NCBI GenBank assembly: GCA_002162075.1
Contig: CP021423.1
Coordinates: 372,001 to 436,000 of the forward strand
Length of the DNA stretch: 64,000 nucleotides
From: Armatimonadetes bacterium Uphvl-Ar1
GTDB lineage: Bacteria; Armatimonadota; Fimbriimonadia; Fimbriimonadales; Fimbriimonadaceae
Direction: 5' to 3'
Made by a program: the position numbers and the translations under genes. Numbering within the stretch: the first letter of the stretch is position 1; each line of letters starts with the position of its first letter. A model generated the notes under the pieces. It made no database searches, was not told the origin of the DNA, and saw only the letters and a list, made by a program, of their open reading frames with translations. This document shows, one piece after another, positions 10,350 through 49,836 of this stretch.

Positions 10350-10411
10350 TTTAGGTTCAAAATCGTGGCTGCCGCTGTAGGATTCGAACCTACGACCCGC
10401 TGATTAACAGT
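10350..10411 (-). repeat. Left attachment site (attL): 62-bp copy of the tRNA-Asn 3' part
   Basis: Identical over 62 bp to 49,746-49,807. It contains the 3' part of tRNA-Asn from the anticodon loop through the encoded CCA plus 16 bases beyond. The match ends inside the anticodon loop, where the next base differs. Only the right copy belongs to a complete tRNA, so this copy is the element-derived or displaced half. Tyrosine recombinases commonly cross over in tRNA anticodon or T loops. Confidence 0.93.
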
Positions 10412-10580: not shown

Positions 10581-11726
10581 TTGATAACAGTGGCAAAGCA
10601 AAGAAGGCGTGAAAAGGGATCAGGCAGCATTTACAAGCGCGGATCAGTCTATGTGGCTCAAGTGCAGGATGGCTGGAAGGAGAACGGAAAACCCAGATAT
10701 CGCCAAGTGAGATGCAAATCTCAAGCCGAGGCCGTTCAAGCCCTTAGGGAATTCACTTCCTTGCTTGTACAAGGGAAAACCATTCCCAATCGACAAGGCC
10801 ACACCGTTTCTTCTTGGCTTGATTTATGGCTTGAAGAACATATCAAGGTCAATCGAGAGGTAAAGACATTTGAGTTCTATCGACTCATGGTTGAGAAACG
10901 CATAAAGCCTTACCTCGGGCGAATGGAGCTCCAGCGAGTTACTCCGATGGACGTAACAAGGCTCTTTAAGGCTATCGAGCAGGACGGAGCAACTGCAAAT
11001 ACTATCCACGCAGTCCGCCGCACTCTCCGAGCGGCATATGGCGTTGCAATAAAGTACGGCGAAGCACATGAGAACCCAGTGTCCAAAACATTTGCTCCCA
11101 AGGTTCGTCGCGAGAAAAAAGTATTTTTCACTGCCGAGCAAGTGCAACAACTCCTGCTTGCGCTTGAGGGGTCTCCTGTCGAGAGCCTCGTAAGATTTAC
11201 ATTAGCAACAGGGCTTCGCATTGGAGAGGTGACTGGACTGACCTGGGATAGTGTTGACCTCAATCAGAAGTCGATCTTAGTCCATTCTCAGTTACAGCGA
11301 GTTGGAACAAAGTTGATTCTGAAACCTCTCAAAACTGAAAAAAGCATCAGAACTATGCCACTTGTCGGACATTCTCTTGAAGCAGTATTGAAGGAGCGGA
11401 ATAGACTTGAAGTCGAACGGTATGAGAACGACCTTAATCTTGTCTTTCTTAATCCTTGGGGCAGACCATTCGATCCAAAATATGTGAACGATCGGCTTCA
11501 TGAAGCACTTGAAAGAGCCCAACTTCCTCGAACCGGGATGCACTCACTTCGACACTCCGCCGCAACATTCATGCTGATGGCAGGGTTGAATCTCCACCAA
11601 GTGAGCCGCTTTCTGGGTCACTCTCAAATTGCTCTCACTTCAAACCTCTACGGTCACGTTCTTGATAGCGCGATGCGGGAATCTGCCGAAAAGCTTCAAG
11701 AATCATATGGTGTCGTGACGATATGA
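10581..11726 (+). CDS. Tyrosine recombinase / phage-type integrase
   Basis: A 381-aa integrase with an N-terminal arm-binding region (residues 12-60), a core-binding SAM-like domain (about 75-160) and a catalytic domain. The catalytic residues are visible: Arg213 in 'TGLRIGE', a Lys near 251-254, His321 and Arg324 in 'HSLRHSAAT', His347 in 'GHSQ' and Tyr357 in 'SNLYGHV'. The start is TTG 10581 or GTG 10590. It sits 170 bp inside attL and reads inward. It would catalyse insertion into and excision from tRNA-Asn. Confidence 0.95.
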   Translation: MITVAKQRRREKGSGSIYKRGSVYVAQVQDGWKENGKPRYRQVRCKSQAEAVQALREFTSLLVQGKTIPNRQGHTVSSWLDLWLEEHIKVNREVKTFEFYRLMVEKRIKPYLGRMELQRVTPMDVTRLFKAIEQDGATANTIHAVRRTLRAAYGVAIKYGEAHENPVSKTFAPKVRREKKVFFTAEQVQQLLLALEGSPVESLVRFTLATGLRIGEVTGLTWDSVDLNQKSILVHSQLQRVGTKLILKPLKTEKSIRTMPLVGHSLEAVLKERNRLEVERYENDLNLVFLNPWGRPFDPKYVNDRLHEALERAQLPRTGMHSLRHSAATFMLMAGLNLHQVSRFLGHSQIALTSNLYGHVLDSAMRESAEKLQESYGVVTI

Positions 11727-21694: not shown

Positions 21695-21698
21695 GGAA

Positions 21699-30366: not shown

Positions 30367-30370
30367 AATG

Positions 30371-31009
30371 TCAGTCTTTAGCGGGTTCGGGCTCACGCGG
30401 GAAATAGAATGATCCACAAATGATATAGTCAAGGACTGTTCTGAAAAGCGCAAATACTAATATCACAACGTGCATTCCAGTTGGCACTTTTCCAGCGGCA
30501 AATAGTATCCCATTAACAGCAAGATAGCAGGTTCCAAGACCAACTGCGAAAAAGTTGAGCAGGGCCCATTTCAATGTTGCGTTGAAAGATTTTTTGCCCT
30601 CCGAACCGAAATATGTGATGAAGCCCCAAATCACATCAATTGTGAGAATCGTAAGCAAAACATGTGCGAAATCAATCGGCAATTTCAAAAGCACGGACAA
30701 AACGACAAAACCAAGCGCGTGCAGGAATAGTAAACAAAAATCTACGATGAGAATGCCGCGTTTATCAACACTTATAGGATTCTCGAAATATGCATCGTCA
30801 AGATGTCGTAGGGCTCCGTGATAGAAAGGGAAAAGTGTGGCCAGATAGGCAAGGAAAAGTTTTATGGCAGAAACAGATATGCTAGATAATCCCGCTTTTG
30901 GGTCAATTAGGCCAGCAATGCCAAACGTCAAACTTACGCCAATAATTACGGTGTAAAGGCTAACAAGACTTCTTGCAGAGTGTTGCCGTAGGACATTCTT
31001 ATCGGACAT
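30371..31009 (-). CDS. Multi-span membrane protein of unknown function
   Basis: A 212-aa protein with five to six predicted membrane helices (about residues 15-35, 45-62, 85-105, 110-130, 145-165 and 175-195). No family recognised. It overlaps the upstream deoxyribosyltransferase-like gene by 11 bases and is followed after four bases by the helicase, so it is embedded in the restriction-modification operon. Membrane proteins in such places often act as effectors that damage the cell membrane, which is inference here. Confidence 0.6.
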   Translation of the reverse strand: MSDKNVLRQHSARSLVSLYTVIIGVSLTFGIAGLIDPKAGLSSISVSAIKLFLAYLATLFPFYHGALRHLDDAYFENPISVDKRGILIVDFCLLFLHALGFVVLSVLLKLPIDFAHVLLTILTIDVIWGFITYFGSEGKKSFNATLKWALLNFFAVGLGTCYLAVNGILFAAGKVPTGMHVVILVFALFRTVLDYIICGSFYFPREPEPAKD

Positions 31010-31388
31010 TTGCCCAGCCCTTCGCCACCCAGGAGTATAGCGAATCTACGTCATAGAAAACAGGCTTTCCGAGTCGATTGAATGTCTCAACCTCACCATC
31101 TGCTCCAGAAGACTCTTCTTGGATGTATTTGTATTCAGAGAGCTCCGCATTCAATCGCAGACAAGCATCATAGAGTGGAAGCATTGCCTGGTCATATTCA
31201 ATCCAGTCTTTGTAGGCACGAGGAAAAACTGTATGCTGAAAATGACTCCAAAGCGGTGCTATGGGCCAAACTTTGCCATCGGATAACAACCGATCGAAGA
31301 TTTTGCATTGGAAATGCGTATTCATCGCTACATCACCACGAGTGTAAGGAGATGCGATGTATACATAGGGTCGTTTGGTCGATGTCAT
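30999..31388 (-). CDS. DUF1937 / nucleoside 2-deoxyribosyltransferase-like protein
   Basis: A 129-aa protein beginning with 'YVYIASPYTRGD' and containing 'DWIEYDQAMLPLYDACLRL', 'SSGADGEVETF' and 'GKPVFYDVD', the pattern of DUF1937 and related nucleoside 2-deoxyribosyltransferases; the Glu in SxGxxxEv is the catalytic residue in that fold. The superfamily cleaves or transfers N-glycosidic bonds of nucleosides and is related to effectors acting on NAD or nucleotides. ATG overlaps the stop of the methyltransferase (ATGA), so it is coupled to it. Confidence 0.65.
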   Translation of the reverse strand: MTSTKRPYVYIASPYTRGDVAMNTHFQCKIFDRLLSDGKVWPIAPLWSHFQHTVFPRAYKDWIEYDQAMLPLYDACLRLNAELSEYKYIQEESSGADGEVETFNRLGKPVFYDVDSLYSWVAKGWANVR

Positions 31389-34159
31389 AGCACCTCGAAC
31401 ACTTTCATCACCTCGTCACCAAGGTGATTGATCACCTTAACTGCGATGCGTCCAGAAGTGGGCTTATTGAATGGACGGGATTCGTCGCTGTTGAGCGTCT
31501 CCCATGCTTCGGCGTCGATCTCCGCCTTCAATGTGGTCTTCAGCGACTTGTACGGGTCGTTGGCTCCCAAGAAGTAAGCGTGGCGGACAAAGAAGCTCTC
31601 TCCATTATAGTCAGTGTCAATGAACCAGCAAGCGATCCCGTCCGCATTATCGCTCCGCACTTCACCCGTCGTCGGATCAAACACGTCCACTCCGTTGATT
31701 TTGACCTGGATTTGTCCTGATTCGTGCATGATGTCAATGTCCGGCTCACCAAATATCACGAACAAGTTGCCTTTGCCGGTGTTCTTCAGTTCACTTCCCA
31801 TGTGCAGGTCGGCGTTCATGCGAGCTTTTAGAATTGGGATGCGACCCAACTTGTCGAACTCACTGCTTGGAGCATCGTAATTGAACGCACATGAAATCAA
31901 GACGTCAAAATCAGCGTCTCCGGCTTCACGTGCGGCTTCGACCAAATCTTGCCTCGAAACGGTTCCAAACTCGGGGCCAATGAAAATCCCGGCGCGTTTT
32001 TGGTGTTCGCCCTCCCGGTAATGAGCTTCGCCACAGATGTACCGACCGGGCCAAGGGATCACGCTGTCAAAGCCAATCTTGTCTTCCTTGTGCGCTTGCT
32101 GAACTCCGGCGGATTTCAGGTTGTCCAAAATCATCGTCGCAAAATTATCGCGCTCATTCTTTGTGGCGGGGTCTGCGGTTGCGGCGTCAACCAGCTCGTC
32201 GTTTTCGTCAACCACCAAGGTTCGGAATGGGGAAAGGCTTTCCACGGTGAACGGACCGGCAACCCGGACTTTCTTTTTGTCTTCAAACGGCTTGTCGTAA
32301 AGAAATTCACTGTCCGCTTTCGAGGCAATGCTCGCGTCGATTTCTTTTTGTCGGGCAATTCGCAGTTCCCACCATTCAGCATGAACTTGTTTGATCTCGT
32401 CATTCCAATCTGGATGCGGATCGCGTGGAATCTCCCATTCCTCCCACGATTGGGCGAGAAGTTCGTTCAACTTCTCACGGAGAGGTTCGAGCCGGGTTTG
32501 GAAATCCTCCCAGATCACGTCGATTTCTGTGTTGTTGGCGATACTCTTCAGAGTGATGTGAGGAACACGGTCGTAAACAAAACCATGCCGGATGTTTCCA
32601 AACGTCTCTTTGATTGAAGGCTCACTTAAAGCGATCTGGGCTTCCTTTTGCTGACCCTCGGGCGAATCAGTCAGCAGATAGTATGGGTATCGCGCACCCA
32701 TGATTCGAGAGCGTGCCAGTGCTAGTGCGACCCGGCTCGTGTCAATCGTAATCCATCGACGTCCCCATTGCTCGGCAACATATGCCATAGTTCCGGAGCC
32801 ACAGGTAGGGTCGAGAACTAGGTCACCTGGGTCGGAAGCCATTAAAATACATCTTTGGATAACCTTTGCGCCTGTTTGCACAACGTAATATCGCTCATCC
32901 GAAAACCCAGTTGAGAGTACGTCATCCCATTGATTGGTAATAGAGAAAACGGCAAAGTCTGAGAAGTACCTCCGATACATAAGACTCTTACCGATTCCCT
33001 TTAACCTGTCTGCTTTGCGTGCTCGGAGCATTCCGACCGCGTTTGTCTTCCATCCGCCTTTACCATAATGAAATTCTGCGCCATCAAGCTCTACAAGGAA
33101 CTGCGTGCTCGCGCCTCCAGACTGACCTTTCATGTCTGAAGCTGCAAAAACTCGCATATTATCTTCAGGAGTCTTTCCGGCTATGCGGATGTCCGTTAAG
33201 TTTTTAGTGCGAGCCCAAACATATTGACTTGTTCCGCTTCCGCCTAACTCTTTTTGTTGAAAAGGTTGCCTATACTTAAGGTGATTCTTGGAGCGGGAAA
33301 ACCAAAGAATAATGTCAGCGGTGGTAGGTAAGAATGCCGAAGTTGCACTTGTAGTCTTAATAAATGATATCTGACTAACAAAATTATCTTCGCCAAAAAC
33401 CTCATCCATTAGTGCCCGAACTCGGTGCACATTTTCATCTCCAATTTGCACAAATATTGAGCCAGATTCCGCCAGTAAGTCACGAGAAACAATGAGCCTA
33501 TCGCGCAAATATGTTAAGTAGGTATGAATACCGTCGCGCCATGTGTCTCGAAACGCTTTAACCATTTCTGGCTCGCGTGTGATATGCTCACGCTTTCCAT
33601 CCTTTACTTCTCGACTCGTCGTGCTCCATTGGAAATTACTATTGAATTTGATCCCATAAGGCGGATCAAGATAAATACATTGCACCTGTCCCCGCAATCC
33701 TTCTCGCTCAGCAAGGCTCGCCATCACCTGGAGCGAGTCACCTAAAATCATCCGATTCGACCAGTTCGAATCATGGACATAAAAGTCAGTCTTGTCCGCG
33801 TCCTTCGGAATACCATTAAAATCTGAGAAGAAATCAAGCTGCACCGGCTTTGCCGGTTCATGTGCCTGCGTCTCCTTCATCAAATCCTTGATCAGAGCCT
33901 GGGGATGGACTTTTTCTTGAATGTAGAGCGGTGGAGCGTGGACGACCAGGTCTGACCAATCCTGCTCGTCTTTGCCACGCCAAACAAGTTGTGGGTCAAG
34001 GTCACGATTTCTCCGTTCGTAAGCAATGCGGATCGCTTCCTGATCTTCTTTGTTCATCACTGACTGGTATTCAGCTGTCGGGATGTTCTTGCGAGAAGCG
34101 TCATAGTGCTTGATCGACTCAACGACCTTCATCGGTTTTGGTTGTTTTGATTTGCTCAT
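31385..34159 (-). CDS. Type III restriction-modification system, DNA methyltransferase (Mod)
   Basis: A 924-aa beta-class N6-adenine/N4-cytosine methyltransferase: DPPY at residues 165-168 precedes the SAM-binding 'DPTCGSG' at 450-456. The long region between and after them holds target recognition and a C-terminal extension typical of large Mod proteins. It methylates the asymmetric recognition site and directs the Res subunit. Its start overlaps the res stop (TAATG), and its stop overlaps the deoxyribosyltransferase-like gene. The target sequence cannot be read from the protein. Confidence 0.92.
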   Translation of the reverse strand: MSKSKQPKPMKVVESIKHYDASRKNIPTAEYQSVMNKEDQEAIRIAYERRNRDLDPQLVWRGKDEQDWSDLVVHAPPLYIQEKVHPQALIKDLMKETQAHEPAKPVQLDFFSDFNGIPKDADKTDFYVHDSNWSNRMILGDSLQVMASLAEREGLRGQVQCIYLDPPYGIKFNSNFQWSTTSREVKDGKREHITREPEMVKAFRDTWRDGIHTYLTYLRDRLIVSRDLLAESGSIFVQIGDENVHRVRALMDEVFGEDNFVSQISFIKTTSATSAFLPTTADIILWFSRSKNHLKYRQPFQQKELGGSGTSQYVWARTKNLTDIRIAGKTPEDNMRVFAASDMKGQSGGASTQFLVELDGAEFHYGKGGWKTNAVGMLRARKADRLKGIGKSLMYRRYFSDFAVFSITNQWDDVLSTGFSDERYYVVQTGAKVIQRCILMASDPGDLVLDPTCGSGTMAYVAEQWGRRWITIDTSRVALALARSRIMGARYPYYLLTDSPEGQQKEAQIALSEPSIKETFGNIRHGFVYDRVPHITLKSIANNTEIDVIWEDFQTRLEPLREKLNELLAQSWEEWEIPRDPHPDWNDEIKQVHAEWWELRIARQKEIDASIASKADSEFLYDKPFEDKKKVRVAGPFTVESLSPFRTLVVDENDELVDAATADPATKNERDNFATMILDNLKSAGVQQAHKEDKIGFDSVIPWPGRYICGEAHYREGEHQKRAGIFIGPEFGTVSRQDLVEAAREAGDADFDVLISCAFNYDAPSSEFDKLGRIPILKARMNADLHMGSELKNTGKGNLFVIFGEPDIDIMHESGQIQVKINGVDVFDPTTGEVRSDNADGIACWFIDTDYNGESFFVRHAYFLGANDPYKSLKTTLKAEIDAEAWETLNSDESRPFNKPTSGRIAVKVINHLGDEVMKVFEVL

Positions 34160-37100
34160 TACGCCTCCTCTCCGGAAATGATTTCACCGGTAAATTGGAT
34201 CAATTCTTCGAATCCAGCCTCCACTTTCGCGGCAAAGTCAGATTCCATACCCCACACGTTTGTGAACTCGACAAAAGCCCACCGTCCAAATTCTCCAAGA
34301 TTGTTGACGCCCGGAACCCAGTAGGTTTCCATCGTCTCTTTCTTGATCTTGGCATCCTCACCTCGATAGCCTTTGATCTCGACCACTAGATTAAGGAGGT
34401 CATCTTCGCCGCGACCATCATCAATCTTGAGGATGTAGTCGGGGATGTACTTTCGATGCTCGGAGCCCATCACGTATGGAACCTCAAACCCCATGTTGTG
34501 GTTTTTGACGTAGGCTTTCACTTTTGGATGCCGCTCGGCAATGCGACAGAATTCGCCTTCCCAATTACTATCTAGAATCGCCCAATTGATGTGACTACTC
34601 TTCGGGGAAGTTTCCCATCGCTCGGACTTGGAAGTGCTGAAGTTCACGTGCATCGTTGAACCTTCAGGGTTATAGGAGTCGAGAACTGCCTGAATCGGTC
34701 GCTCGTCCATGTGTGCCCGAGTTATTCCGGAACTGATTTTGTCGCAAGCCATGTCGGCGATTTCTTGGTACATCAACTGAGCCGGGAAGGTGCCACCTTG
34801 GCACTCCAGGTAGTTGTCGAGCCAATGGTTGGTGATGCGTTTGAGCTGTCCAAAAAGATGGAGTTTCGGCTCTTCGCCTGCGTCACGCCATTTTGTGTAG
34901 AGCAGCCGCTTGGTGAGATGCATAAGTAGAGTTGACCGGCGCAAGTCACCCGTATGAATGAGATTGAGGTTGACGCCCTCGCCGATGATCCCTTGGTTTT
35001 GCGTGATCGATGGACCAATCATGGCGGGAGTCACAATCAGTTTCGAGTCGGGATTGAACTGTGCTTGAATTCGCTCCTCTGGAAGTTCAACCCGATAGCC
35101 CATGACGCGCGGGAACCGGATTTCGAGGTGGTCTCTTTCGGGCTTGATTGCTTTGACCTGTACGGTTTCACGCGGTTTGACCGGCTTTGCGATGACGGGT
35201 TTGGCGGTGAAATCAAACGGGATTCCAAGAATGTCCGCGTATTCAACATTGAAGAGCTCCTCTTCGTTGAGATCATATGATTGTCGTCGGAGAGCTCGAC
35301 CGATAACTTGCTCGCAAAGTAACTGAGTGCCGAAGGCTCGGACTCCAAGAATGTGCGTTACGGTATTGGCGTCCCAGCCTTCTGTCAACATGGAGACGGA
35401 GACGACACAACGAACTGATTCACCTAGTCGGCCGGACTTGCCGACTGTGTTCATGACTTCACGAAGAAGGTCTTGATCTGAGATATTTTCGCCTGATCGA
35501 GGATCTCCTGTTCGCTCGATGATCTCTCGACGGAACCGTTCGATTTCATCGGATGCAATTGCACGAAACTTGTCGTCAATCGCCTCACCGGATTCAAGCT
35601 GCTCGCTGTCAACTAAGATCGTCCGTGGTCGGGCATAGGGATTGCCATGCTCGTCATAGTTGCGGAAGAGCTCAAGGCGACCATTTTCGAGTGTCGATGA
35701 ACCGTCTTGGTTTTCGCGGAAGAATCCTGAAATGTAGTCGTAAACAAGCTTAGACGTTGCCGTGTTGTTGCAGACAACAATAAAGCAAGGCGGAATCTTG
35801 AGCCCTTCATTCTGCCAGAGTTCAAATGTTTCGTTGTAGTGTCCGTAAAGAGCCTCTAGAGCCGTTTGCAGCTCCACCGGGATACTGAGCGGGTCGAGTT
35901 CTTTTCCGGCACTGCGGCCCTTTTTTGGCATTTTCTTGCCAATGTGCTCCCATAGATTTCGGAACTTTGGAATCTCTGCGTCCGGTATGTTGTCCGCAAC
36001 GGGAACGCGGGGAAGTTTAACGATGCCGCATTCGATAGCGTCCATCAACGAGAAGTCACACATGGTCCAAGGGAAAAGCGTTCCTTCGGCATAGCCCGAA
36101 CCTCGAAGGAAAAATGGGGTCGCCGACAAATCCATGACTCGGGCCACGCCTAGTTTTCGATTGACTGATTCAAGCCCGGTAATCCAAAGACGCGCTGCTT
36201 CATTGTTCTTCTTCGCTTCTTCTTTATCTTCCGTTGCAAGAGTTTCCAGATTTGCGGTTTCCGGCTTTTCTCGGTAACAGTGATGGGCTTCGTCATTGAG
36301 CACCATGATGTTTTTGAGCCCCATCAATTCGGGCATAACCCGCTGGATCATCTGGCCCTCTGTCTCAAGTGTTTGGATGTCCTCGCCGTGACCTTTTAGG
36401 AGCGCGCGTCCACCTTTTGAAATATCGATCCGCTCTCGAAGTTTGAAAGCGTGGTAATTCGTAATGACAATCTTTGCTTTCTGCAAATCATCGAGCATGT
36501 CGCTCGGAACAATTTCCCGGCTTGTGTAATAGCTGTCTGGATCATTTGGTTGAAGCACTCTGAGGCGGTCTTTGATCGTGATACCCGGTGCGACGATCAA
36601 GAAGCCCCGAGTGAATGTCTTGGAGTTTGGCCTTCGCACGGCGTTGAGGGTCTGCCACGCAATGATCATCGCCATGACCGTTGTTTTGCCCGCTCCAGTT
36701 GCGAGCTTCAGAGCCAACCTCATGAGATCAGGATTTGCTTCTTTGTTCGCTCTGTTGAGCTGGTCGATGACCTCTTTGCCCGTCTTCGTGTGCGGCGCGA
36801 CTTCTGTGAGCCAGATAGCTGTTTCAACGGCCTCGACTTGGCAAAAAAATGGGCGGACTCCTTGGAATGGATGGTTTCTCCAGTAATCAAGCAGTCGAGC
36901 TGTCTCGGGGTAACTCCCCAATGAGACTGATCCCGGATCATCCGCCATTGATCTACCTGAGAGCGCACTGAGTTGATCAGCTGCGCTTGGGCGTATTCTT
37001 GTTTTTCCGTTGAGAGGCCATGGCCCTCGTCAAAGATGATGGATTTCTGACTTGCCGCACCCTTTTTGAGCTTCGGCTTGGGAATCGGAGTGATAAAGTC

Positions 37101-38656: not shown

Positions 38657-40087
38657 GTGATCACCAAAACCGACTTCTTAATATACGATCAGCATCCCTG
38701 TTGGCTATGGCTGTCCAAAAATCAACCTGACCTGTTACCACCGGATGACGAAAACCTGGCTCAAACGTTTGAAGATGGAAACGATCTGGAAGCATTCGCG
38801 GCTCAACGATTCGAGAACGTAGCATTGGGTGAGCTGTCAGTCGTACCTGGCTCCGTAGCGATGCAGTGCGTATTTGCATGGGGAAACTTCGAGTGTCGAT
38901 CTGGCTTACTCATCCGGGAGCCGGATGGTTCAATTCACCTTGTCGAAATCAAGTCATCAACTAGAGTGAAGCCAGAGCACCTGCTCGATCTTGCCTTCCA
39001 GAAGCAAGTCCTCGAAGCGAACGACCAAGTAATGAGCAGAGTTAGTGTCATGCACGTTAACAACTCTTATGTGCGATCAGGTGAGATTGATCCGAATCAG
39101 TTGCTCACCATGACAGATGTCACAGCTGAGGTTTCTGCGCTTTCAAGCGAGATAGCAACCCAGATGCGCACAGCGGAGTCCACAGCACTATCAGTCGATA
39201 TGCCTGATCCATCACCTCGGTATTGCCACAAAGATTTCAAAAAAGATTGGCTCCGAATTGCTCGGAACCTGACAAAGCTTCCTGAGGGTTGCGTATACTA
39301 AAGGTCGTATCTCAGCCTTGAGGCCGCCGCCGGATTGGAAGATCAAGGCATTCTGAGCATTGCGGATATCCCGGATTCGGCTCTAAAGCGCGCAGATCAA
39401 CGAGCACTCAAATCAACTCTTTGCCTTTCAGAGCCAGTAATCGACCGGGCTGTGATTCGCGAATCTTTGGACTCACTGATTTTTCCGCTCTTTTTCATTG
39501 ACTATGAATCAGTATCGCTGCCCGTACCTCCCCATAACGGAACCAAACCGTATCAGCAAGTCGTCTTCCGGTACTCGCTCCATATTCTTGAAGACCCTTT
39601 TGCAGACGTTCGCCACGAAGAGTACTTGCATACTGACTCTGACCTCCCGACACGATCGTTAGTCAACTCGATGCGCGAGCATGTTGGAAACAAAGGTTCT
39701 GTCATTGTTTGGAACGCAACGTTTGAAAAGACCCGCAACAAAGAAATGGGCGAAGCTATTCCCGACGCAAAGGAATTCTTTGATGACATGAACTCGCGTC
39801 TCTATGATCTCATGCTCTTCTTCAAGCCGGATGCTTCATTTCGTGATTCGAGATTCAAAGGAAGTGCTTCAATCAAGAAGGTGCTGCCGGTGGTCGTGCC
39901 GGATTTGAAGTACACCGACCTCGAAGTCCAGGAGGGTCAGTCTGCTTCAAGAATCTGGCGCAACATCTTTCTTGATGGCAGCAACATGGGCGGGAGATCT
40001 GGTGAACTTGTCGCCTCCCTTCGAGAGTATTGCAAGCTAGATACGTTGGCTATGGTTGAGATCTATCGCTCACTATACAGTCTTTAA
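38657..40087 (+). pseudogene. DUF2779-type PD-(D/E)xK nuclease-like protein with an in-frame TAA
   Basis: GTG 38657 starts a protein whose first 215 residues contain a nuclease-like core ('GLLIREPDGSIHLVEIKSST', Glu97 and Lys99). TAA 39299-39301 stops it, but the same frame continues 'RSYLSLEAAAGLEDQGILSIADIP' and then a DUF2779 domain ('LFFIDYESVSLPVPPHNGTKPYQQVVFRYSLHIL...VIVWNATFEK...YDLMLFFKP') to 40087. The total of 476 codons matches a single protein. The family is common in defence islands, function unknown. The stop could derive from CAA by one transition. Confidence 0.7.
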
Positions 40088-40213: not shown

Positions 40214-40240
40214 GAACGTCCTAAATTGGACGTTCATTTT
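40214..40240. terminator. Bidirectional intrinsic terminator
   Basis: An 8-bp perfect stem GAACGTCC/GGACGTTC with a 6-base loop is followed by a T-rich tract on the + strand and preceded by an A-rich tract, so it can end transcription from both the DUF2779 gene (+) and the KTSC operon (-). Confidence 0.75.
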
Positions 40241-40291: not shown

Positions 40292-40507
40292 CTAGGATAT
40301 TTGATTATAGTGGTAGCCGCCTTGTTTTACATGCGTATTGAGATATGTTCCTTTTGATGCAGCGGACATCAGCCCCGCATAAGTGCTTTCTGGGACACCA
40401 TGGTAATCATAAACTGATCCATTCTTGAACCTGATCCTGAGAGTTCTGGATTCCTTGTCATAGCCTATTGCGTCAATATTCGATGATGAGACTGGTGTTA
40501 GATTCAT
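40292..40507 (-). CDS. KTSC domain protein
   Basis: A 71-aa protein that is a single KTSC domain: 'SSNIDAIGYDKESRTLRIRFKNGSVYDYHGVPESTYAGLMSAASKGTYLNTHVKQ'. The domain is found alone or fused to nucleases and RNA-binding proteins and is of unknown activity. ATG overlaps the OLD gene stop (ATGA) and it is the last gene before the terminator, so it is the third member of the DUF2130-OLD operon. Confidence 0.85.
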   Translation of the reverse strand: MNLTPVSSSNIDAIGYDKESRTLRIRFKNGSVYDYHGVPESTYAGLMSAASKGTYLNTHVKQGGYHYNQIS

Positions 40508-42444
40508 GTGTTACTCCCCGCAAAGGCAATTATCGTCTTGCAGATACTATCTAGTGTAGCAGAGGTCACACCTTCTTCTTTTAGTTTGGAAAGTAGGTGG
40601 CCTATATAAAGCGGATTCTTTTTTAAATCACCCGCAAAGCCGAGCTGTTCACTTGCATGGTCACGTGCCTTTCGTAAGGCGTCTTCTTCAAAGTCGGCCG
40701 TTATGACTGTGCCAATGTCGCACTTGGCAGCAAAGCAATTCTCTGCAAGTAGGTCGTCGTCCAGGAAGCCGTCTATGGTAGATATTCCCAGAAGATTGAA
40801 GATGCCCTTGTTGTCTTTAGAGTGCAGGTTTCTCTTGCCAACATCTGTTTCACCCGAATCTGTGTCAAAGACGACGAACGCCTTACATCCCAATTCTTGA
40901 GCGATGGCCATGGGGCGGGGCAAGTGTCCTTTGCCGTTAACTGGAAGAATTGTGATTCCAAGTCTGCGGAACTCTTCCCAGTGACCATTCAAGACAGCAT
41001 GAGAAGTAAGGTAGGACAAGTCTTCTTGACCTTCAACTAGTACGAGACACCTTGAAAAGAACATCTCATTGAGACCTGCGTATAGCTCAGGCTGGAGCTT
41101 TGCCATCAAGCCTTCGGCTGATAAAGGTTTGCCCACTCCGGCATCATCGAGCCTTTTCTGAATATTTTTTAGATTACAACCGACTACCTTTGTATCCCGT
41201 CCCACATTGTCCCTGGAAGCATGGCGTATCGAACTCAGTTTTTCGGCTGATACGAAATACGGACTGTGTGTTGTGATGAGAACCTGGTCTTCTTTTTCAG
41301 TTAGCTGCTCTAGGACACCGGCAAGATGCCTCGCTTGTGGAGGATGCTGATAGAGCTCAGGCTCTTCAATTCCGAGTAAAAGAGTTGGTCCGTCGGGAGT
41401 TTCTGTGTCGGCAAGTTCTTGCAAAAGCGCCAGAAGGTAGGAACGCTGAACACCATGACCGCATCTAGAGATAGAGTGTGATATGGCCTTGAACTCATTG
41501 ACATCGGCGGAAGCCATAGGGGGCCTAACGCTCACTGCCTCATTTCCACCCTCGCGCCATGACAGGGTTAGTTCAATCTCCGGATGAGACAAGGTCTGAA
41601 TGCGTTCACTTAGCTTCTTGGAAAGTTCTGTTAGGCTGGCCTTTTCCTTTTCAAGCATTTCGTCATAACTTTCGCGTGCCTGATCCTTGATAAGTGACAT
41701 TTGTACACTGAAGTCAACTTTGTTGCGTATCGCCCTGGTTACAAGCTTCTCAAGCGCAGTATTCTTGTTTCCTGACTGTTCAATAGCTGCATCTTTTACT
41801 GCTGGTACATAGACCCACTGTATAAAGGGGGTCAGTTTGCCGACGCCCTCGACGCCGTAGAACTGATCGCTGCTTGATACTTCTTCAAGTAGACCAGGGT
41901 GCTTTTGTTCAAACTGGGAAAGTGCCAAAATTTGTTTAGGTACAGTGTTTTCTTCAGTCAGTCCTGGATAAGTCTTCCTGATTTCTGCGTACTTAGCCTT
42001 TTTCTGGTCGGCCGTTGCTCCCTTCTGGCCATTCAAATCCCTATACTCGACGAACGCTGGTATTGACATGGTCTTGCCTCGCTGGTCTAGCCTTGCTCTT
42101 TCAGATTTTGGGTCGAACGTCAGTACGGTACTAACTGTCAGCCTGTCGTCCTGAACATAGTGACTGAGCTCTTCGCGTGCTTTGTCGCTGATCACTTCGA
42201 AATAGAGGGTGATCTCGATTGGTTCATCCACGTTTCCCATATGGAAGTCTTCGGCGGAAACATCAGTTCGCGGGTTGATTCCTCCAAAAGATTCCCCGAA
42301 AAAGACGTTGAGCGCGGAGAGAATTGTTGACTTTCCGCTACCGTTTGATCCCACTATCGCGGTGTAATCATCAATGAGTATCCGTTCGTTTTTGATGCTA
42401 CGGAAGTTCCTTATTTCGATTTCCTTTAGTTTTAGGTGGCTCAT
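40504..42444 (-). CDS. OLD-family ATP-dependent endonuclease (AAA15 ATPase plus TOPRIM)
   Basis: A 646-aa protein. 'IRNFRSIKNERILIDDYTAIVGSNGSGKSTIL' gives the N-terminal ABC-type ATPase with Walker A at residues 32-40; 'GIEEPELYQHPPQARHLA' is the signature/Walker B region and 'LITTHSPYFVS' the switch histidine. The C-terminal TOPRIM nuclease shows 'CLVLVEGQEDLSYL' and 'FVVFDTDSGE'. OLD nucleases include GajA of the Gabija system. Its ATG overlaps the DUF2130 stop by four bases and its stop overlaps KTSC, so all three are co-translated. Confidence 0.9.
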   Translation of the reverse strand: MSHLKLKEIEIRNFRSIKNERILIDDYTAIVGSNGSGKSTILSALNVFFGESFGGINPRTDVSAEDFHMGNVDEPIEITLYFEVISDKAREELSHYVQDDRLTVSTVLTFDPKSERARLDQRGKTMSIPAFVEYRDLNGQKGATADQKKAKYAEIRKTYPGLTEENTVPKQILALSQFEQKHPGLLEEVSSSDQFYGVEGVGKLTPFIQWVYVPAVKDAAIEQSGNKNTALEKLVTRAIRNKVDFSVQMSLIKDQARESYDEMLEKEKASLTELSKKLSERIQTLSHPEIELTLSWREGGNEAVSVRPPMASADVNEFKAISHSISRCGHGVQRSYLLALLQELADTETPDGPTLLLGIEEPELYQHPPQARHLAGVLEQLTEKEDQVLITTHSPYFVSAEKLSSIRHASRDNVGRDTKVVGCNLKNIQKRLDDAGVGKPLSAEGLMAKLQPELYAGLNEMFFSRCLVLVEGQEDLSYLTSHAVLNGHWEEFRRLGITILPVNGKGHLPRPMAIAQELGCKAFVVFDTDSGETDVGKRNLHSKDNKGIFNLLGISTIDGFLDDDLLAENCFAAKCDIGTVITADFEEDALRKARDHASEQLGFAGDLKKNPLYIGHLLSKLKEEGVTSATLDSICKTIIAFAGSNT

Positions 42445-43691
42445 TCGATTTCCTCCTCAGAGTCATTGTCTGAAAAAGCGGGAAGCTCAGGCACTTCCTT
42501 GCCCCCAATCCCTTGTAAATCTCCTGACAGCGAGCTAGCCGACATTAGGACGCGTTCAATTTGCTTTTCTCGTTTGTTCCAACGGTTCATCGTTGCACGC
42601 TTTTCTGAATCTAAGTCCTTTTGCATCTGAACGAACGGTTCGACAATCCCTTGTAATCGAGCGCGAAATTCTGGCCCAGTCATATAGTCGTAAAGCAATT
42701 CGGATTTGTCCTGCTTTCCGGCAGCCATCCTTCTTGCATTTGCGACCTGATCCATTTGCTGTCTGAGGGCGTGAGCAACTGCCACCGCAAATGCTGGTCG
42801 GCAAGTCCATACCCCTTCGAAAAAGCCGAATGTCTCGATACCCTTCGGCATGGCATCGCTGACGATGATTACGAGCTCGGCCTTGGCTTTGAGTGCGTCT
42901 TGCTTTGCTTTTGAGGGCCAATCTCCACCCCAGGCTTGCGTTCGCTTAATCTCCCACATCACCGTTCCCGCGTGGAGTCCCGGACCGCTCATTACCTTCT
43001 GAATAAGATCGCCACCCCTTTGCCCTGTCTTTATTGGCTCGATGTCGTCCCATGGAAACGTTTGTCTCAGCGTCTCTTCAAGATCGATCTCCATGATCTC
43101 GCCTTGCATCTGCTGAGATCCTTGTTCGGCCTTTCGTTTTGCTTCGTCAAGCTGGGATAAGAGATTTTTGATCGTCTTATTCTGTTCTGCGAACTTGAGT
43201 TTGTTCGCTTCGTCGGCTTCTTTAACTGCCTGCTCCCGCAACGTAGCGATTTCCGCCTGCGCTTCTTTTTTTGCTTCTAGCTTCGCAGCCTGCAAGTCGA
43301 GTTCGGCCCTCTGCTTTGCCTTGAGCACTTCCTCAATCTCTTCCTGACTCTTTTTCAGTCGATCAGCAATTTCTTTTGAACGATCCTCGCTCCCTTTGAT
43401 CTTTGCTTCAAGCTCTTCTTCGATCTGTGCTCGCTGACGTTTTTCTGATTCAGCTAGCTTTGCGTTCAGCTTCTTCGTAACCTCATCATCTATGGCTTCC
43501 TTTGCTTTTGAAATGGTCTCACGCTCTTCCTTTAACTTGGTCTCAGCATCCTTCTTAAGCTCAAGGGCCTCGCGAAGCTTGCTTTCATTCTCTTGTTTAA
43601 TCTGAGCAATAAGTGGAGCGGCTATGGTCTCAGTGAGTGGAATATCTGTCCCACATTCGGGGCATTTTATTGTTGGGCTCGGAATATCCAT
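42441..43691 (-). CDS. DUF2130 protein: coiled coil plus PD-(D/E)xK-like nuclease
   Basis: A 416-aa protein. Residues 8-18 hold a CPECG zinc-ribbon half; residues about 35-205 are a long charged coiled coil; and the C-terminal DUF2130 domain shows 'RGGDLIQKV', 'GTVMWEIKRTQAWGGDWPSKAKQD' and 'LVIIVSDAMPKGIETF', matching a restriction-nuclease-like D...ExK core. The family is annotated as unknown function. It leads the three-gene overlapping operon with an OLD ATPase-nuclease and KTSC protein. Confidence 0.85.
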   Translation of the reverse strand: MDIPSPTIKCPECGTDIPLTETIAAPLIAQIKQENESKLREALELKKDAETKLKEERETISKAKEAIDDEVTKKLNAKLAESEKRQRAQIEEELEAKIKGSEDRSKEIADRLKKSQEEIEEVLKAKQRAELDLQAAKLEAKKEAQAEIATLREQAVKEADEANKLKFAEQNKTIKNLLSQLDEAKRKAEQGSQQMQGEIMEIDLEETLRQTFPWDDIEPIKTGQRGGDLIQKVMSGPGLHAGTVMWEIKRTQAWGGDWPSKAKQDALKAKAELVIIVSDAMPKGIETFGFFEGVWTCRPAFAVAVAHALRQQMDQVANARRMAAGKQDKSELLYDYMTGPEFRARLQGIVEPFVQMQKDLDSEKRATMNRWNKREKQIERVLMSASSLSGDLQGIGGKEVPELPAFSDNDSEEEIE

Positions 43692-44084
43692 GGTTGTTAT
43701 CGAGTTAATTTGGTGAAATTAAACCCTGACCCTGGTGTGCTTGTCACGCATTTTCTTCTTAGCAAAATTGAATTTCGTCTTGGCTCGCTACTCTCCCCGT
43801 GCGGGGAAGGGCAGAGAAGAGGAAGTCTGAGCCTCTTAGCTGAGCATTGTGTATCCACTTATCAAGATCCTCAGCAAGCTTTGGATGAGCAGGGATGTCT
43901 CTTTGCACTCCGCCTTTCACTTGGAGCCTTAGCACTTGAGTGAAATCATTGGCGCAGAGATCGAGGGCAGCAAAAGTCAGTTCTGGATATTGTCGATTTC
44001 GCAAGATCTGACCCGATCAAGTTTGGATTCATTGAGGTTATTGTTTTGGACTGGCTGGCGATTTTTTGGATTCAGTTACTTGAG
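43692..44084. other. Intergenic stretch with a possible recombinase remnant
   Basis: On the minus strand 43759-44004 encodes 'FTQVLRLQVKGGVQRDIPAHPKLAEDLDKWI...FLFSALPRTGR', which resembles the beta-sheet and helix before the catalytic His-Arg of tyrosine recombinases but lacks all catalytic residues. The + strand has a CTCTCCCC...GGGGAAGGG inverted pattern near 43791-43806, a dispersed repeat type. No intact gene is seen. Confidence 0.35.
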
Positions 44085-44810
44085 TTAGCTGATGACCCCT
44101 CGTAATTGATCCGGAAAGAAAACCAGCGTTTTTTCGTCATTCCAAGAGATATTTCCCGTTGGAATTCCCGTAACAGGACGGTAGTTTTGAAAAGCACCAA
44201 TTAAAGCCCCATAGGGCCTAAATCGGCTGACCTCAACCTCTTCTCCCGAGAAGGCAAGGAGAAGAAAGTTCCGGTTGTCGGTTGTGAGGAGTCCGATAAC
44301 GAGTTCAGACTCATAAGCCGAAATGACAATTGAGTCAAGCGGCGGCGTAGACATGTTTTGGAACAAGAGAACGGTGCCATGGGGAAAAAGAGGTGCCAAT
44401 TTATTACCATTAATGATGATAGCTCGATAGTCAGATGTGCCTGAACTGAGAGCTATCGGGCAGCGCCAGTGCGCCAGTTGTTCGGATTTCGGTTGACTCT
44501 CAAAGAATCCTTCGCAGTTAAAAGGTTCGAGCTTGAGGTAGGGCGCATTATTCACTTGTGAGAACGACGGAAGCTGTGTTGGGGAGTTCTCTTCTAGAAA
44601 ATACGGCATGGTGGCTTCGCTCCAGTGAGCTTTCGCCCAATCGGCGTACTCGTTCACCCACTTGGCGGATCGTTCTTCTTCAATATCGCGAATCACTGTA
44701 GCAGTAATTTCTGCATTCAGCGAGTTGGATAGATACTCAGCCAATTTGAGCCTTGACACTTTGGGCTTTTGGTTCATTCTCCAATTTTTTAGTACCTGAC
44801 CGTTTACCAT
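44085..44810 (-). CDS. Phage-type repressor: HTH plus degenerate S24/LexA-like domain
   Basis: A 241-aa protein, divergent from the primase gene. The N-terminal 60 residues look like an XRE-type HTH ('SRLKLAEYLSNSLNAEITATVIRDIEE'). The C-terminal part follows the S24 layout ('YRAIIINGNKLAPLFPHGTVLLFQ'), but the catalytic Ser of the usual GDSMxP is replaced in GNKLAP, and no Lys is present where the general base should be ('NRNFLLLAF'). It probably represses the divergent replication gene but should not self-cleave in the SOS response. Confidence 0.65.
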   Translation of the reverse strand: MVNGQVLKNWRMNQKPKVSRLKLAEYLSNSLNAEITATVIRDIEEERSAKWVNEYADWAKAHWSEATMPYFLEENSPTQLPSFSQVNNAPYLKLEPFNCEGFFESQPKSEQLAHWRCPIALSSGTSDYRAIIINGNKLAPLFPHGTVLLFQNMSTPPLDSIVISAYESELVIGLLTTDNRNFLLLAFSGEEVEVSRFRPYGALIGAFQNYRPVTGIPTGNISWNDEKTLVFFPDQLRGVIS

Positions 44811-44840
44811 ATGGAGATTGTACCTTCACATTGATGTGGA

Positions 44841-44852
44841 AAAAACGTTTTT
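44841..44852. promoter_or_regulatory. Candidate repressor operator (12-bp palindrome)
   Basis: A perfect palindrome AAAAACGTTTTT lies midway between the divergent repressor and primase genes, a few bases before a TTGACG hexamer. Its position suits control of the primase promoter by the repressor. Only one copy is seen, so the assignment is tentative. Confidence 0.35.
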
Positions 44853-44883
44853 CATATTGACGCAAAAGTGGTATTACGAAATT

Positions 44884-47325
44884 GTGGACACGTTTCAACG
44901 GGTTTGTGGGGCCTTAGGGGTGGAGGCGAAGGGTCGGGAAGTTCGGTGTAACTGTCCGGCGCACGGCGGGGATTCGCAGAGTTTGAGTGTGCGGGAGTTG
45001 CCGGACGGGAAGGTGCAGATCACTTGCTTTAGCCAGCGGTGCGAGCGGGATGCGATTCTGGCGGCGGTGGGCCTGACGTGGCAGGATTTACTCCCGGACA
45101 ACACAATCCACCGGCACGGGGTGAAGCGGCGGGCGAGTAAACCGACCGACAAGTGGACCCAGGAGCGGATCGGGGGTGAAGATGTATTTGTGAAGTGGGA
45201 GTTGGTATGTGCTTACTTGTATCTCGATGAGCAGGGGAATTTGCTTTATGAAAAGCTCAGGTACCGGCCGGGGGAGAAGTACCGGAACGCGCCGGAGATG
45301 GCGAAGAAGCAGAAGAGCTTTGCGTTTTCGCGGAAGGCGGCGAACGGGAATGTGATTTGGGGGATGGATGGGGGGTGGCACGAGTTCAACCCTAAGCGGC
45401 GGCGGTGGGAGTACCTGAGAAACGAGTCGCAGCATCGGGTGGATGAGAAGCCGGTGGATGGGGCGGAGTGGTTTGATGCGCCGAGGCGCGTGCTTTATGA
45501 CTTGCCGATGCTCGTGGCGGATTTGCAGAGCGGGGTGAAAGAGGTTTGGGTCTGTGAGGGGGAACCGGATGCGGGGGTGCTCCGGCGATCGCTGGGGATG
45601 GCGGCGACGACGGCGGATTCGGGAGCGGGGACATGGCGGCGGGAGTATACGCAGTTCCTGGCGAAGTTTGAGGTGGTCGTGATTGTGGCGGATCGGGATT
45701 TACCGGGGCTGAAAGGGGCGATCCAGAAGCGGGATGCCATTTTGGCGGTGGATCCGGCCCCGGTGGTGCGGGTGGTGCTTCCGGGAGAAGGAAACGACGC
45801 GGAGGAGTTTGTGCTCAAAGGGGGCGTGCGGGAGGGATTTGTTGAGATTGATCCGGAGGCGGAAGTCGCGAAGCTGACTGAATCCTCTCCCCCGAACCCC
45901 CCTCTCCCGGTTGACGAGAATGGGTCGTCAGGGTTTGCACGGGAATCATTTTGGTTCAACGATGTGGAATTGGCGGAGGCGTTTGTGGATGCGCATGGGG
46001 ATCGGCTTCGGTTTTGCGCGAAGTTTGGCTTTTGGCTTCGGTGGACGGGGGCGTATTGGGCGGAGGATCAGAACGCGGGGGAGGGGTTTCTTGATGAGTG
46101 GCGCAAGTATGCACGGGTCCAGGAGCGCGTGGGGCATAAGATGATCGAGAGCGAGAAGTACGGGGAGAAGTTTTGCAAAAAAATTGATGGGCAGATTAAG
46201 CGGAATTTGAGTTCGACCGGGGTGTCTTCGGTTGAGGGGTTGGTGAAGCGGATTCACCCGGTGCCAGTGAGTCCGGATCAGTTGGACCAGGAGCTTGATT
46301 ACTTGCCGGTGGCGAACGGGACGATCGATTTGCGGCGGGGGGTTTTGGTGCCAGCGGATCCGGCGCACCTTTTTACGGGATGCGTGAATTTGATTTACGA
46401 CGAGAATGCGGATTGTCCGGAGTGGATCAAGTTTCTCGACGAGTCGCTGGGGAGTCCGCAGATGACCGAGTATATGCGGATGGTGGTCGGCTACTTGTTG
46501 ACGGGGCGAACGAGCGAGCAAAAGTTTTGGTTTTTCTATGGTCCGCCGAGGAGCGGGAAGGGGACGTGCATTCGGATATTGCAGAAGTTGATGGGGAATT
46601 TGTCGGTGGTTTTGCAGAAGCAATTTATTATGAAGTCGAATTTTCCGGTGACGATTGCGGAACATTGGGCGAGGGCGAAAGGGAAACGGCTCATGGTGAT
46701 CAACGAGGTGGATTCTCGCGACCGGTGGGATGAAGCGAAGTTGAAAGAAGTCACCGGCGAGGATATGATCAATGCGCGGAAGCTGAATGAGAACTCTTAT
46801 GATTTCTTTCCGACGTTTAAGATGCTGGCGGTGGGGAATGAGAAGCCGAGGGTTCGGGGTGAGGATGATGCGTTTTGGACGCGGGTGTTGCCGGTCGAGT
46901 TTCCAAATTCGAGGGTGGGGAAGTTTCAGGATCAGAAGCTCGGGGAGACGTTGGAGCGTGAGTTACCGGGGATTTTGCTTTGGGCGGTGAGTGGGGCGAA
47001 GGATTGGTATGAGAAGGGCCTGCCAACTCCGGAAGAAGTTCAAGCACATTTAGACGAATATAAACGATCAAGTGATACGATTCGTAAATTTTTGGTGGCG
47101 TGTACGGATTATAAAACAGGCTTCACGATTGGCGGACAAGAGTTGTTTGAAGCGTACGAGAAATACAATAGGAAAATCGGTAATAAATTTTATTTGAATA
47201 AGAATGACTTTGGTCTGAAAGTAAAACTTAGGACGGATGTTAAGTATAAAAAAGTTGAGAAGGGAATGAAGTTGATCGACCATGCTCTTAAATTTGAAGA
47301 GGAGTGGGATTATGATGCGGAGTAG
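44884..47325 (+). CDS. Phage/plasmid primase-helicase (P4 alpha/D5 type)
   Basis: About 813 aa. An N-terminal zinc-binding primase motif ('CNCPAHGG...CFSQRCERDAILAAVGLTWQDLL') is followed by a TOPRIM-like part ('VWVCEGEPDAGVLRRSLG...VVIVADRD'), then a D5/P4-type superfamily 3 helicase with Walker A 'GPPRSGKGT' and Walker B 'LMVINEVDSRDRWD' before 'PTFKMLAVGNEKPRV'. GTG 44884 fits the family N-terminus; TTG 44818 would overlap the regulatory region. It would drive autonomous replication of the element. Its G-rich codon use is like the host flanks, unlike the island genes to its left. Confidence 0.88.
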   Translation: MDTFQRVCGALGVEAKGREVRCNCPAHGGDSQSLSVRELPDGKVQITCFSQRCERDAILAAVGLTWQDLLPDNTIHRHGVKRRASKPTDKWTQERIGGEDVFVKWELVCAYLYLDEQGNLLYEKLRYRPGEKYRNAPEMAKKQKSFAFSRKAANGNVIWGMDGGWHEFNPKRRRWEYLRNESQHRVDEKPVDGAEWFDAPRRVLYDLPMLVADLQSGVKEVWVCEGEPDAGVLRRSLGMAATTADSGAGTWRREYTQFLAKFEVVVIVADRDLPGLKGAIQKRDAILAVDPAPVVRVVLPGEGNDAEEFVLKGGVREGFVEIDPEAEVAKLTESSPPNPPLPVDENGSSGFARESFWFNDVELAEAFVDAHGDRLRFCAKFGFWLRWTGAYWAEDQNAGEGFLDEWRKYARVQERVGHKMIESEKYGEKFCKKIDGQIKRNLSSTGVSSVEGLVKRIHPVPVSPDQLDQELDYLPVANGTIDLRRGVLVPADPAHLFTGCVNLIYDENADCPEWIKFLDESLGSPQMTEYMRMVVGYLLTGRTSEQKFWFFYGPPRSGKGTCIRILQKLMGNLSVVLQKQFIMKSNFPVTIAEHWARAKGKRLMVINEVDSRDRWDEAKLKEVTGEDMINARKLNENSYDFFPTFKMLAVGNEKPRVRGEDDAFWTRVLPVEFPNSRVGKFQDQKLGETLERELPGILLWAVSGAKDWYEKGLPTPEEVQAHLDEYKRSSDTIRKFLVACTDYKTGFTIGGQELFEAYEKYNRKIGNKFYLNKNDFGLKVKLRTDVKYKKVEKGMKLIDHALKFEEEWDYDAE

Positions 47326-49282: not shown

Positions 49283-49468
49283 ATGAACACGACCAATGAA
49301 CAAGGAACATTGTTGAGTGATCGGAATACCCGGTTGAAGCCGAGGAAAAAATGGGAAGAAGAGAGCTTAGAACAAGGTCCTTGTAGCTGCCTTGTTCAGT
49401 GGGTACGTCAGCGAATTCACTTCATCTCGGTTCCTCGAATAGTCAGCATGAAGAGGTTGTGCTCGTGA
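49283..49468 (+). CDS. Small protein, 61 aa, coupled to excisionase
   Basis: ATG 49283 lies one base after the upstream stop and its TGA overlaps the GTG of the next gene (GTGA). This double coupling is the main reason to believe it is translated. The sequence is basic in the N-terminal half and hydrophobic near the end; no family recognised. Confidence 0.45.
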   Translation: MNTTNEQGTLLSDRNTRLKPRKKWEEESLEQGPCSCLVQWVRQRIHFISVPRIVSMKRLCS

Positions 49469-49659
49469 AAATTGATACTGGAGATAAGCTTGCGTACAGT
49501 GTAAGACAAGCCGCTGAATTATTGTCAATTTCGAGGAGTCAGATGTACGAGATGATCAATGCCGGAAAAATCGGCTCAATAAAAATTGGTCGGTCAAGAC
49601 GAATTACATCAAGGCAGCTAAACGAGTACCTTGCTGACCGGGAAAAGGAAGATGCCTAA
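49465..49659 (+). CDS. Excisionase (HTH_17/MerR-like)
   Basis: GTG 49465 overlaps the preceding stop and follows AAGAGG. The 64-aa protein 'KLAYSVRQAAELLSISRSQMYEMINAGKIGSIKIGRSRRITSRQLNEYLADREKE' is a canonical excisionase-family DNA-binding domain. Its place 100 bp inside attR, next to arm-site repeats shared with the integrase end, makes it the best candidate for the element's Xis. Confidence 0.82.
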   Translation: MKIDTGDKLAYSVRQAAELLSISRSQMYEMINAGKIGSIKIGRSRRITSRQLNEYLADREKEDA

Positions 49660-49702: not shown

Positions 49703-49748
49703 AAAGAAAACCACCTTCTGAACTCAGATGGTGGTTTTCTTTCTTTTT
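49703..49748. terminator. Strong intrinsic terminator inside attR
   Basis: A 13-bp stem (49703-49715 with 49730-49742) and an inner 5-bp stem TCTGA/TCAGA form a long hairpin followed by CTTTTT. It ends the excisionase operon and can also act on the other strand because of the matching A tract. Confidence 0.8.
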
Positions 49749-49807
49749 AGGTTCAAAATCGTGGCTGCCGCTGTAGGATTCGAACCTACGACCCGCTGAT
49801 TAACAGT
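49746..49807 (-). repeat. Right attachment site (62-bp direct repeat within tRNA-Asn)
   Basis: Identical to 10350-10411. It spans the 3' part of the intact tRNA-Asn gene from the anticodon loop through CCA and 16 bases beyond. Together the copies delimit an element of about 39.4 kb that leaves a complete tRNA at its right side. Confidence 0.93.
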
Positions 49808-49836
49808 CAGCTGCTCTACCACTGAGCTAAGCGGCA
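49762..49836 (-). tRNA. tRNA-Asn (anticodon GTT)
   Basis: Complete cloverleaf on the minus strand: acceptor TGCCGCT/AGCGGCA, D arm GCTC/GAGC, anticodon stem GCTGA/TCAGC with loop CTGTTAA (anticodon GTT), T arm GTAGG/CCTAC, encoded CCA at 49762-49764. The integration site of the island. Confidence 0.96.

Follow-up and report, generated by a model that had tools for sequence, protein, structure and literature searches.

The 64,000-nucleotide stretch analysed here, called the window throughout, belongs to Armatimonadetes bacterium Uphvl-Ar1 (CP021423.1, positions 372,001-436,000; assembly GCA_002162075.1) and carries an operon on its minus strand, at 43691-40292, whose three complete open reading frames (ORFs) encode a DUF2130 protein, an OLD-family protein and a small KTSC-domain protein, in that order (Table 1). 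An earlier note on this DNA had described a three-gene operon with four-base ATGA overlaps, and the ORF coordinates and Pfam bear this out. The DUF2130/OLD and OLD/KTSC junctions are both 4-bp ATGA overlaps; DUF2130 scores 199.4 bits against a curated cut-off of 26.7 and KTSC 89.3 bits against 25, while the OLD gene matches AAA_15 (3.6e-41) and OLD-like_TOPRIM (5.1e-13). No SIR2 or HerA gene was found among the window ORFs between DUF2130 and KTSC by Pfam. The note had also given the operon a terminator of its own; a bidirectional hairpin (8-bp stem, T6 tail) is indeed present 57-78 bases past KTSC (40235-40214, minus strand), but such sites are no commoner than in shuffled sequences (six terminator-like sites in the region vs 5.3 +/- 2.0). 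Just upstream of DUF2130 lies an 81-amino-acid (aa) ORF (43759-44004, minus strand), which by eye we take to resemble a tyrosine recombinase fragment.

The first gene had been regarded as a coiled-coil nuclease-like protein, and this is supported by the PD-(D/E)XK core in an AlphaFold model of the window DUF2130 built from 64 sequences. The model has a mean predicted local distance difference test (pLDDT) of 81 and a predicted template modelling (pTM) score of 0.40, the latter making the relative placement of the domains unsure. It consists of a CxxC hairpin head (C10, C13), a coiled coil of about 190 residues (about 21-211), an alpha/beta core and a helical C terminus. An alpha-beta-beta-beta-alpha-beta core was found with its elements at 169-278, the PD-(D/E)XK core corresponding to about residues 196-316. 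Foldseek gave weak matches (E >= 0.02), among which PD-(D/E)XK nucleases were the best after a coiled-coil protein. VIA-align matched the model to Hjc (4tkk; Z 9.3, root-mean-square deviation 2.6 over 101 residues), to VC1899 (Z 9.9) and to the McrC, Bax1, Can2 and DdmD nucleases, all over DUF2130 residues about 175-320, and nearly all of the VIA-align rows listed are nucleases of the PD-(D/E)XK fold. Eight residues are invariant in 64 DUF2130 homologues (C10, C13, E198, E201, E205, D228, E247 and K249), and they include both the cysteines of the CPECG head and the ExK residues (E247, K249) which the note had picked out. Because the PD-(D/E)XK structural matches come together with invariant D...ExK catalytic residues (D228, E247, K249), a nuclease of this fold is the likely prediction for the window DUF2130.

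By sequence, DUF2130 matched no solved structures beyond coiled coils, zinc fingers and similar proteins, and a Pfam scan returned no DNA-binding regulator domain. Weak PADLOC matches to LmuB and ZorA fall largely within the coiled-coil stretch and were set aside. The hhalign comparison of the DUF2130 profile with RmuC, made with only four RmuC proteins, gave a probability of 0.1%, and Pfam RmuC was not reported for the window DUF2130.

In the OLD-family protein the motifs of the ABC ATPase (Walker A GSNGSGKS at 32, signature GHGVQRS at 329, Walker B LLLGIEEPE at 355) and the acidic motifs of the TOPRIM domain (VLVEGQED at 468, VFDTDSGE at 525) are all intact. Its nearest relatives are three OLD proteins, 39-46% identical, with neither an adjoining DUF2130 or KTSC gene nor a helicase partner; the OLDs that come after other members of this DUF2130 subfamily are only 20-25% identical to it. 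The KTSC protein resembles the C terminus of the HerA chain in PDB 8wiv (residues 633-694). KTSC has been called DNA-binding, and a KTSC gene was noted beside HerA (PMC9503650). In one locus (L136) KTSC adjoins OLD without DUF2130, and in another (L068) an OLD-KTSC pair stands tail to tail with DUF2130. Locus L205 encodes a 76-aa KTSC-like protein (11736-11966, minus strand) two genes upstream of DUF2130 and next to OLD; it was not counted as KTSC, having an E-value of 1.9e-4 with a custom profile and no match in Pfam.

DUF2130 has a patchy distribution, being over cut-off in 18 of 291 genomes of the window's phylum and in 31 of 300 genomes of the order of the L057 organism. A scan of 84,980 species genomes yielded 80 DUF2130 loci from many phyla. 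The scan loci were pooled with those of relatives and plasmids, and removal of DUF2130 proteins >=90% identical left a non-redundant set of, again, 80 loci. A downstream gene was taken as qualifying when it lay on the same strand, encoded >=150 aa and started <=150 bases past the stop codon of DUF2130, or was separated from it by one short ORF. Such a gene is present in 43 of the 80 loci, and according to Pfam 23 of these genes belong to three families: SIR2_2 (eight), AAA_13, which is RloC/PrrC-like (eight), and the OLD-type AAA_15 (seven). PADLOC assigned SIR2 to 8-9 of the 43 and its candidate PDC-S06 to nine. By the same two resources, no such family was seen in two or more of 39 same-strand genes directly upstream of DUF2130; likewise, 43 distant genes (>4 kb away) gave no SIR2, AAA_13 or AAA_15 in two or more. 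The bias towards the downstream side has a Fisher p of 1e-5, even granting one upstream member for each of the three families, and the downstream gap is zero or overlapping in 18 of 39 cases. These statistics rest on Pfam and PADLOC counts for the genes that adjoin DUF2130 on either side. Labels from phmmer (28 downstream vs two upstream partners) were set aside, since their reference panel had been drawn from the downstream genes. Co-location with SIR2 was not used as a statistic either: in the 300 genomes of the L057 organism's order three of six SIR2 genes (E <1e-40) lie within 3 kb of DUF2130, two of the three genomes having already been found via DUF2130 and only G480 (L209) being independent.

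The partners fall into several recurrent arrangements. The order DUF2130-SIR2-HerA-KTSC occurs in eight loci (L056, L057, L064, L074, L084, L089, L092 and L135), DUF2130 is directly upstream of AAA_13 in another eight (L040, L046, L058, L062, L073, L098, L102 and L204), and six OLD genes follow DUF2130 in the non-redundant set. Further partners are YhcG, SMC-like ATPases followed by a methylase, AAA_21 with DUF4276, and complete OLD+UvrD (Gabija-like) pairs, which DUF2130 precedes in L030 and L075; the partner in L024, named by eye from its sequence, is presumably TrlF-like. In a divergent second DUF2130 subfamily of about 470 aa (L015, L140, L197, L200, L203, L205) OLD is directly upstream, a ResIII-type helicase is often in the cluster, and members also stand beside AAA_13, HerA or SIR2-HerA. 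Judged by gene order, DUF2130 is thus the first gene of many different predicted effector operons. PDC-S06, which matches such AAA_13 proteins, may lack a subunit, namely DUF2130.

We then mapped the partners on a DUF2130 tree of 96 proteins, a quick tree with some long branches. Partner labels change 32 times, vs a mean of 32.7 for shuffled labels, and OLD as a partner takes seven changes for seven cases. The tree gives no sign of fixed pairs, and partners change freely; among DUF2130 proteins that are about 90% identical, the partner is AAA_13 in L046 and L062 but OLD in L059. The DUF2130 nearest to that of the window (64% identical) is in L135, from a related genome (G133), where the gene order is OLD, a gene which by eye we take to be ArdC-like, DUF2130, SIR2, HerA and KTSC. 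On this evidence the recurrent unit is DUF2130 followed by an exchangeable effector, most often SIR2-HerA with KTSC last. Because the nearest DUF2130 heads SIR2-HerA-KTSC, the simplest reading of the window operon is that of a SIR2-HerA cassette in which a class-1-like OLD would have taken the place of SIR2-HerA between DUF2130 and KTSC. A fixed, co-evolving trio is rejected on the DUF2130 tree and the solitary relatives of OLD. As for the note's proposal that the three genes form a unit, the adjacency of DUF2130 and OLD recurs, with the six downstream OLDs and with OLD upstream in the second subfamily, but the exact trio is found only here.

Altogether, these data make it likely, by context, that the operon is antiviral and that its DUF2130 gene is a module shared with other operons. 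The explanation that we favour as a whole, and to which we give an even chance, is that of a modular antiviral operon on an integrative element, with DUF2130 acting first and OLD as an exchangeable second effector. What stands of the candidate defence system announced by the note is therefore a good candidate operon on a mobile island, but not the fixed trio or the Gabija-like picture. In the mechanism that we propose, DUF2130 would be a coiled-coil PD-(D/E)XK DNA nuclease which multimerises via its coiled coil and CxxC head and which comes first in the course of events, where it would cut or process DNA that is foreign or abnormal. OLD would be an ATP-gated TOPRIM nuclease, triggered by the resulting DNA ends or intermediates or by a fall in nucleotides, and once triggered it would destroy DNA through TOPRIM cleavage. 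The RloC/PrrC type cleaves tRNA, and the second step of the sister operons would be NAD+ loss (SIR2-HerA) or tRNA cleavage (RloC/PrrC-like AAA_13). KTSC may be a small DNA-binding or adaptor domain kept from a HerA-type cassette. The order of action, DUF2130 and then OLD, is put forward tentatively, and we think it somewhat less probable than not.

The broader claim would be that bacterial immunity has a general front-end nuclease in DUF2130, a portable protein that comes first in SIR2-HerA, RloC/PrrC-like, OLD/Gabija, TrlF-like, YhcG and other systems; we consider this a real possibility, though one that falls short of even. If true, many systems catalogued as one- or two-gene units (e.g. PADLOC PDC-S06) would have an unrecognised DUF2130 subunit, a large uncharacterised family would gain a testable function, and several systems would extend beyond the limits that current catalogues set for them. 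Should DUF2130 be a component common to many immune operons, recognition of the phage or of DNA may be a function distinct from the effector, and the exchange of partners behind one constant upstream gene would reveal how defence systems are put together. There would also be a way to approach KTSC; the literature found does not establish what it does beside HerA.

Several observations weigh against the favoured explanation. The exact gene order of the window is a single case, and free partner exchange would also fit a loose association without physical contact, or mere shared expression. A qualifying downstream gene is missing from 37 of the 80 non-redundant loci, and about half of the DUF2130 copies are without a recognised effector partner. 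Most of the 80 loci were the top matches to the DUF2130 subfamily of the window itself, they come for the most part from metagenome assemblies, and their genes were called by simple ORF rules. Finally, DUF2130 is directly upstream of a family A DNA polymerase in three IMG/VR phage contigs (L160, L169, L170), and upstream of it by one gene further in L168 (IMG/VR). These contigs suggest a use of DUF2130 in phage DNA metabolism, and the predicted nuclease could therefore serve ordinary DNA metabolism.

DUF2130 might accordingly be an independent nuclease, for stand-alone defence or DNA processing, that merely shares promoters and islands with effectors, OLD being separate and the operon a matter of co-expression. 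We regard this as rather unlikely. Partners distributed on the tree like random labels, and the many copies that stand alone, are what it would lead one to expect, and ShdA, another nuclease (RmuC domain), protects alone, with accessory genes optional (PMC10270631); however, the partner bias is strongly directional and family-specific, the junctions overlap or nearly overlap, and KTSC is repeatedly at the far end of the same cassette. It seems quite improbable that DUF2130 and/or KTSC are controllers which restrain or license a toxic effector (OLD, SIR2-HerA or RloC-like) in the manner of an upstream regulator. ShdB acts negatively on ShdA in Shield (PMC10270631), but DUF2130 is without a Pfam DNA-binding regulator domain, and a nuclease active site that is invariant over 64 sequences argues for catalysis.

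It could also be that OLD inserted into a SIR2-HerA cassette and works alone as a class 1 OLD, with DUF2130 and KTSC as remnants of the broken cassette. Such an origin agrees with the nearest OLD relatives, which have neither gene beside them, and with a nearest DUF2130 that heads SIR2-HerA-KTSC; yet the operon keeps both of its 4-bp overlaps and three full-length ORFs with undamaged motifs, and the arrangement of DUF2130 before OLD was reached separately about seven times. We judge it very unlikely. More doubtful still is a reading with no part in defence, in which the genes would serve the mobile element in DNA repair or replication: the recognised partners overwhelmingly belong to families in which anti-phage proteins are known, and restriction-modification is present on the island, although phage DUF2130 copies adjoin family A DNA polymerase and cell-cycle roles occur among archaeal members of the OLD family (PMC12796447).

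Among known systems, SIR2-HerA resembles the window operon in having KTSC last, in the eight loci that include the window's sister DUF2130, and KTSC is linked to HerA both as a neighbouring gene (PMC9503650) and as a fusion at the end of the HerA chain (PDB 8wiv); the difference is that the window has OLD where those have SIR2 and HerA. No DUF2130 component of SIR2-HerA systems was found in the literature searched or in PADLOC. With Gabija (GajA-GajB, class 2 OLD) the operon shares an OLD ATPase/TOPRIM protein with a partner gene. In the window, in contrast, the neighbours of OLD are DUF2130 and KTSC, and the UvrD-like helicase gene (28267-30453, minus strand) is 10 kb from the OLD gene, beyond the restriction-modification pair. 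The note had placed DUF2130 in the position of the Gabija helicase; this is rejected, because DUF2130 also precedes the complete OLD+UvrD pairs of L030 and L075, where all three genes are together. Class 1 OLDs (P2 Old, T. scotoductus OLD) have the domain layout of the window OLD, whose nearest relatives likewise lack DUF2130, KTSC and helicase neighbours. Class 1 OLDs are defined as single genes (PMC10568477), whereas the window OLD is in an operon with two genes, with a 4-bp overlap each.

Shield (ShdA, RmuC domain) likewise combines a core DNA nuclease with accessory genes that differ between subtypes; ShdA, however, sits in the membrane, and neither OLD nor SIR2-HerA is among its described accessories (PMC10270631); as far as the comparison with four RmuC proteins reaches, the family seems different from DUF2130. 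BrxR/WYL and CapK/CapS provide the example of a common gene or pair that is met with in defence operons of many kinds (PMC9122601, PMC13373217), but they are transcription regulators, while DUF2130 looks like a nuclease. It is thus already known that a common gene can accompany many defence operons (BrxR, CapK/CapS) and that a nuclease core can have varying accessories (Shield), and because of these precedents we file the window operon as a variant of a known pattern; the novel case would be a general role of DUF2130 across defence operons. PADLOC has no convincing DUF2130 model and no NCBIfam entry names DUF2130. The DUF2130 literature found includes no study presented as defence work by title or abstract, in a search without subscription papers or bioRxiv, and we make no claim of priority.

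Table 1. Features of the operon and of the element that carries it (window positions)
Feature	Coordinates	Strand	Evidence
DUF2130 protein, 416 aa	42441..43691	-	Pfam PF09903 7.9e-59, AlphaFold model, PDB structural matches, conservation
OLD-family protein, 646 aa	40504..42444	-	Pfam AAA_15 + OLD-like_TOPRIM; PADLOC Old 1.2e-51, GajA 2.9e-29
KTSC-domain protein, 71 aa	40292..40507	-	Pfam PF13619 1.3e-25
Intrinsic-terminator-like hairpin, bidirectional, 3' of KTSC	40214..40235	.	Terminator scan
Left att-like repeat, 62 bp, copy of tRNA-Asn 3' part	10350..10411	.	Repeat search
Tyrosine integrase	10581..11726	+	Pfam Phage_integrase 2.8e-26
DNA methylase (N6_N4_Mtase) of neighbouring restriction-modification pair	31385..34159	-	Pfam
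ResIII-type restriction subunit, same restriction-modification pair	34159..36948	-	Pfam, PADLOC
P4-family primase/helicase	44818..47325	+	NCBIfam TIGR01613 1.4e-65
Small HTH_17 protein near right end, probably of excisionase/AlpA type	49399..49659	+	Pfam HTH_17 1.3e-13
Right att-like repeat, overlaps tRNA-Asn	49746..49807	.	Repeat search

The operon is part of an integrative element of 39.4 kb, which has at its two ends a perfect 62-bp direct repeat that includes the 3' part of tRNA-Asn (49762-49836, minus strand). A mobile island beside restriction-modification, as the note had it, is therefore confirmed by the repeat, the integrase, the primase and the pair of DNA methylase and ResIII genes. 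According to Pfam, an ArdC-like gene is also inside the island. Since genus relatives (G003, G004, G005 and G001) have additional copies of the repeat close to this tRNA, with copies of the tRNA end 8-22 kb away in several of them, sequence comparison suggests that the tRNA-Asn site is a recurrent integration site.

Other genes of the island were recorded as well. A 969-aa TPR/AAA protein (22208-25117) and a 333-aa protein (20753-21754) have counterparts on a contig of the sister genome G006 (L022), which carries another DUF2130-OLD pair, consistent with islands that share a backbone but differ in cargo. The gene at 44085-44810 (minus strand), which diverges from that of the primase, encodes a 241-aa protein without a Pfam match, perhaps the repressor of the element by its position. 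Finally, a RecB-like/DUF2779 gene (38657-40087, plus strand) is broken in two by a single in-frame stop codon, which lies between 39301 and 39335, and on an Aliarcobacter plasmid (NZ_CP104379) a DUF2779 gene with a PD-(D/E)XK neighbour is located near DUF2130-OLD-UvrD.

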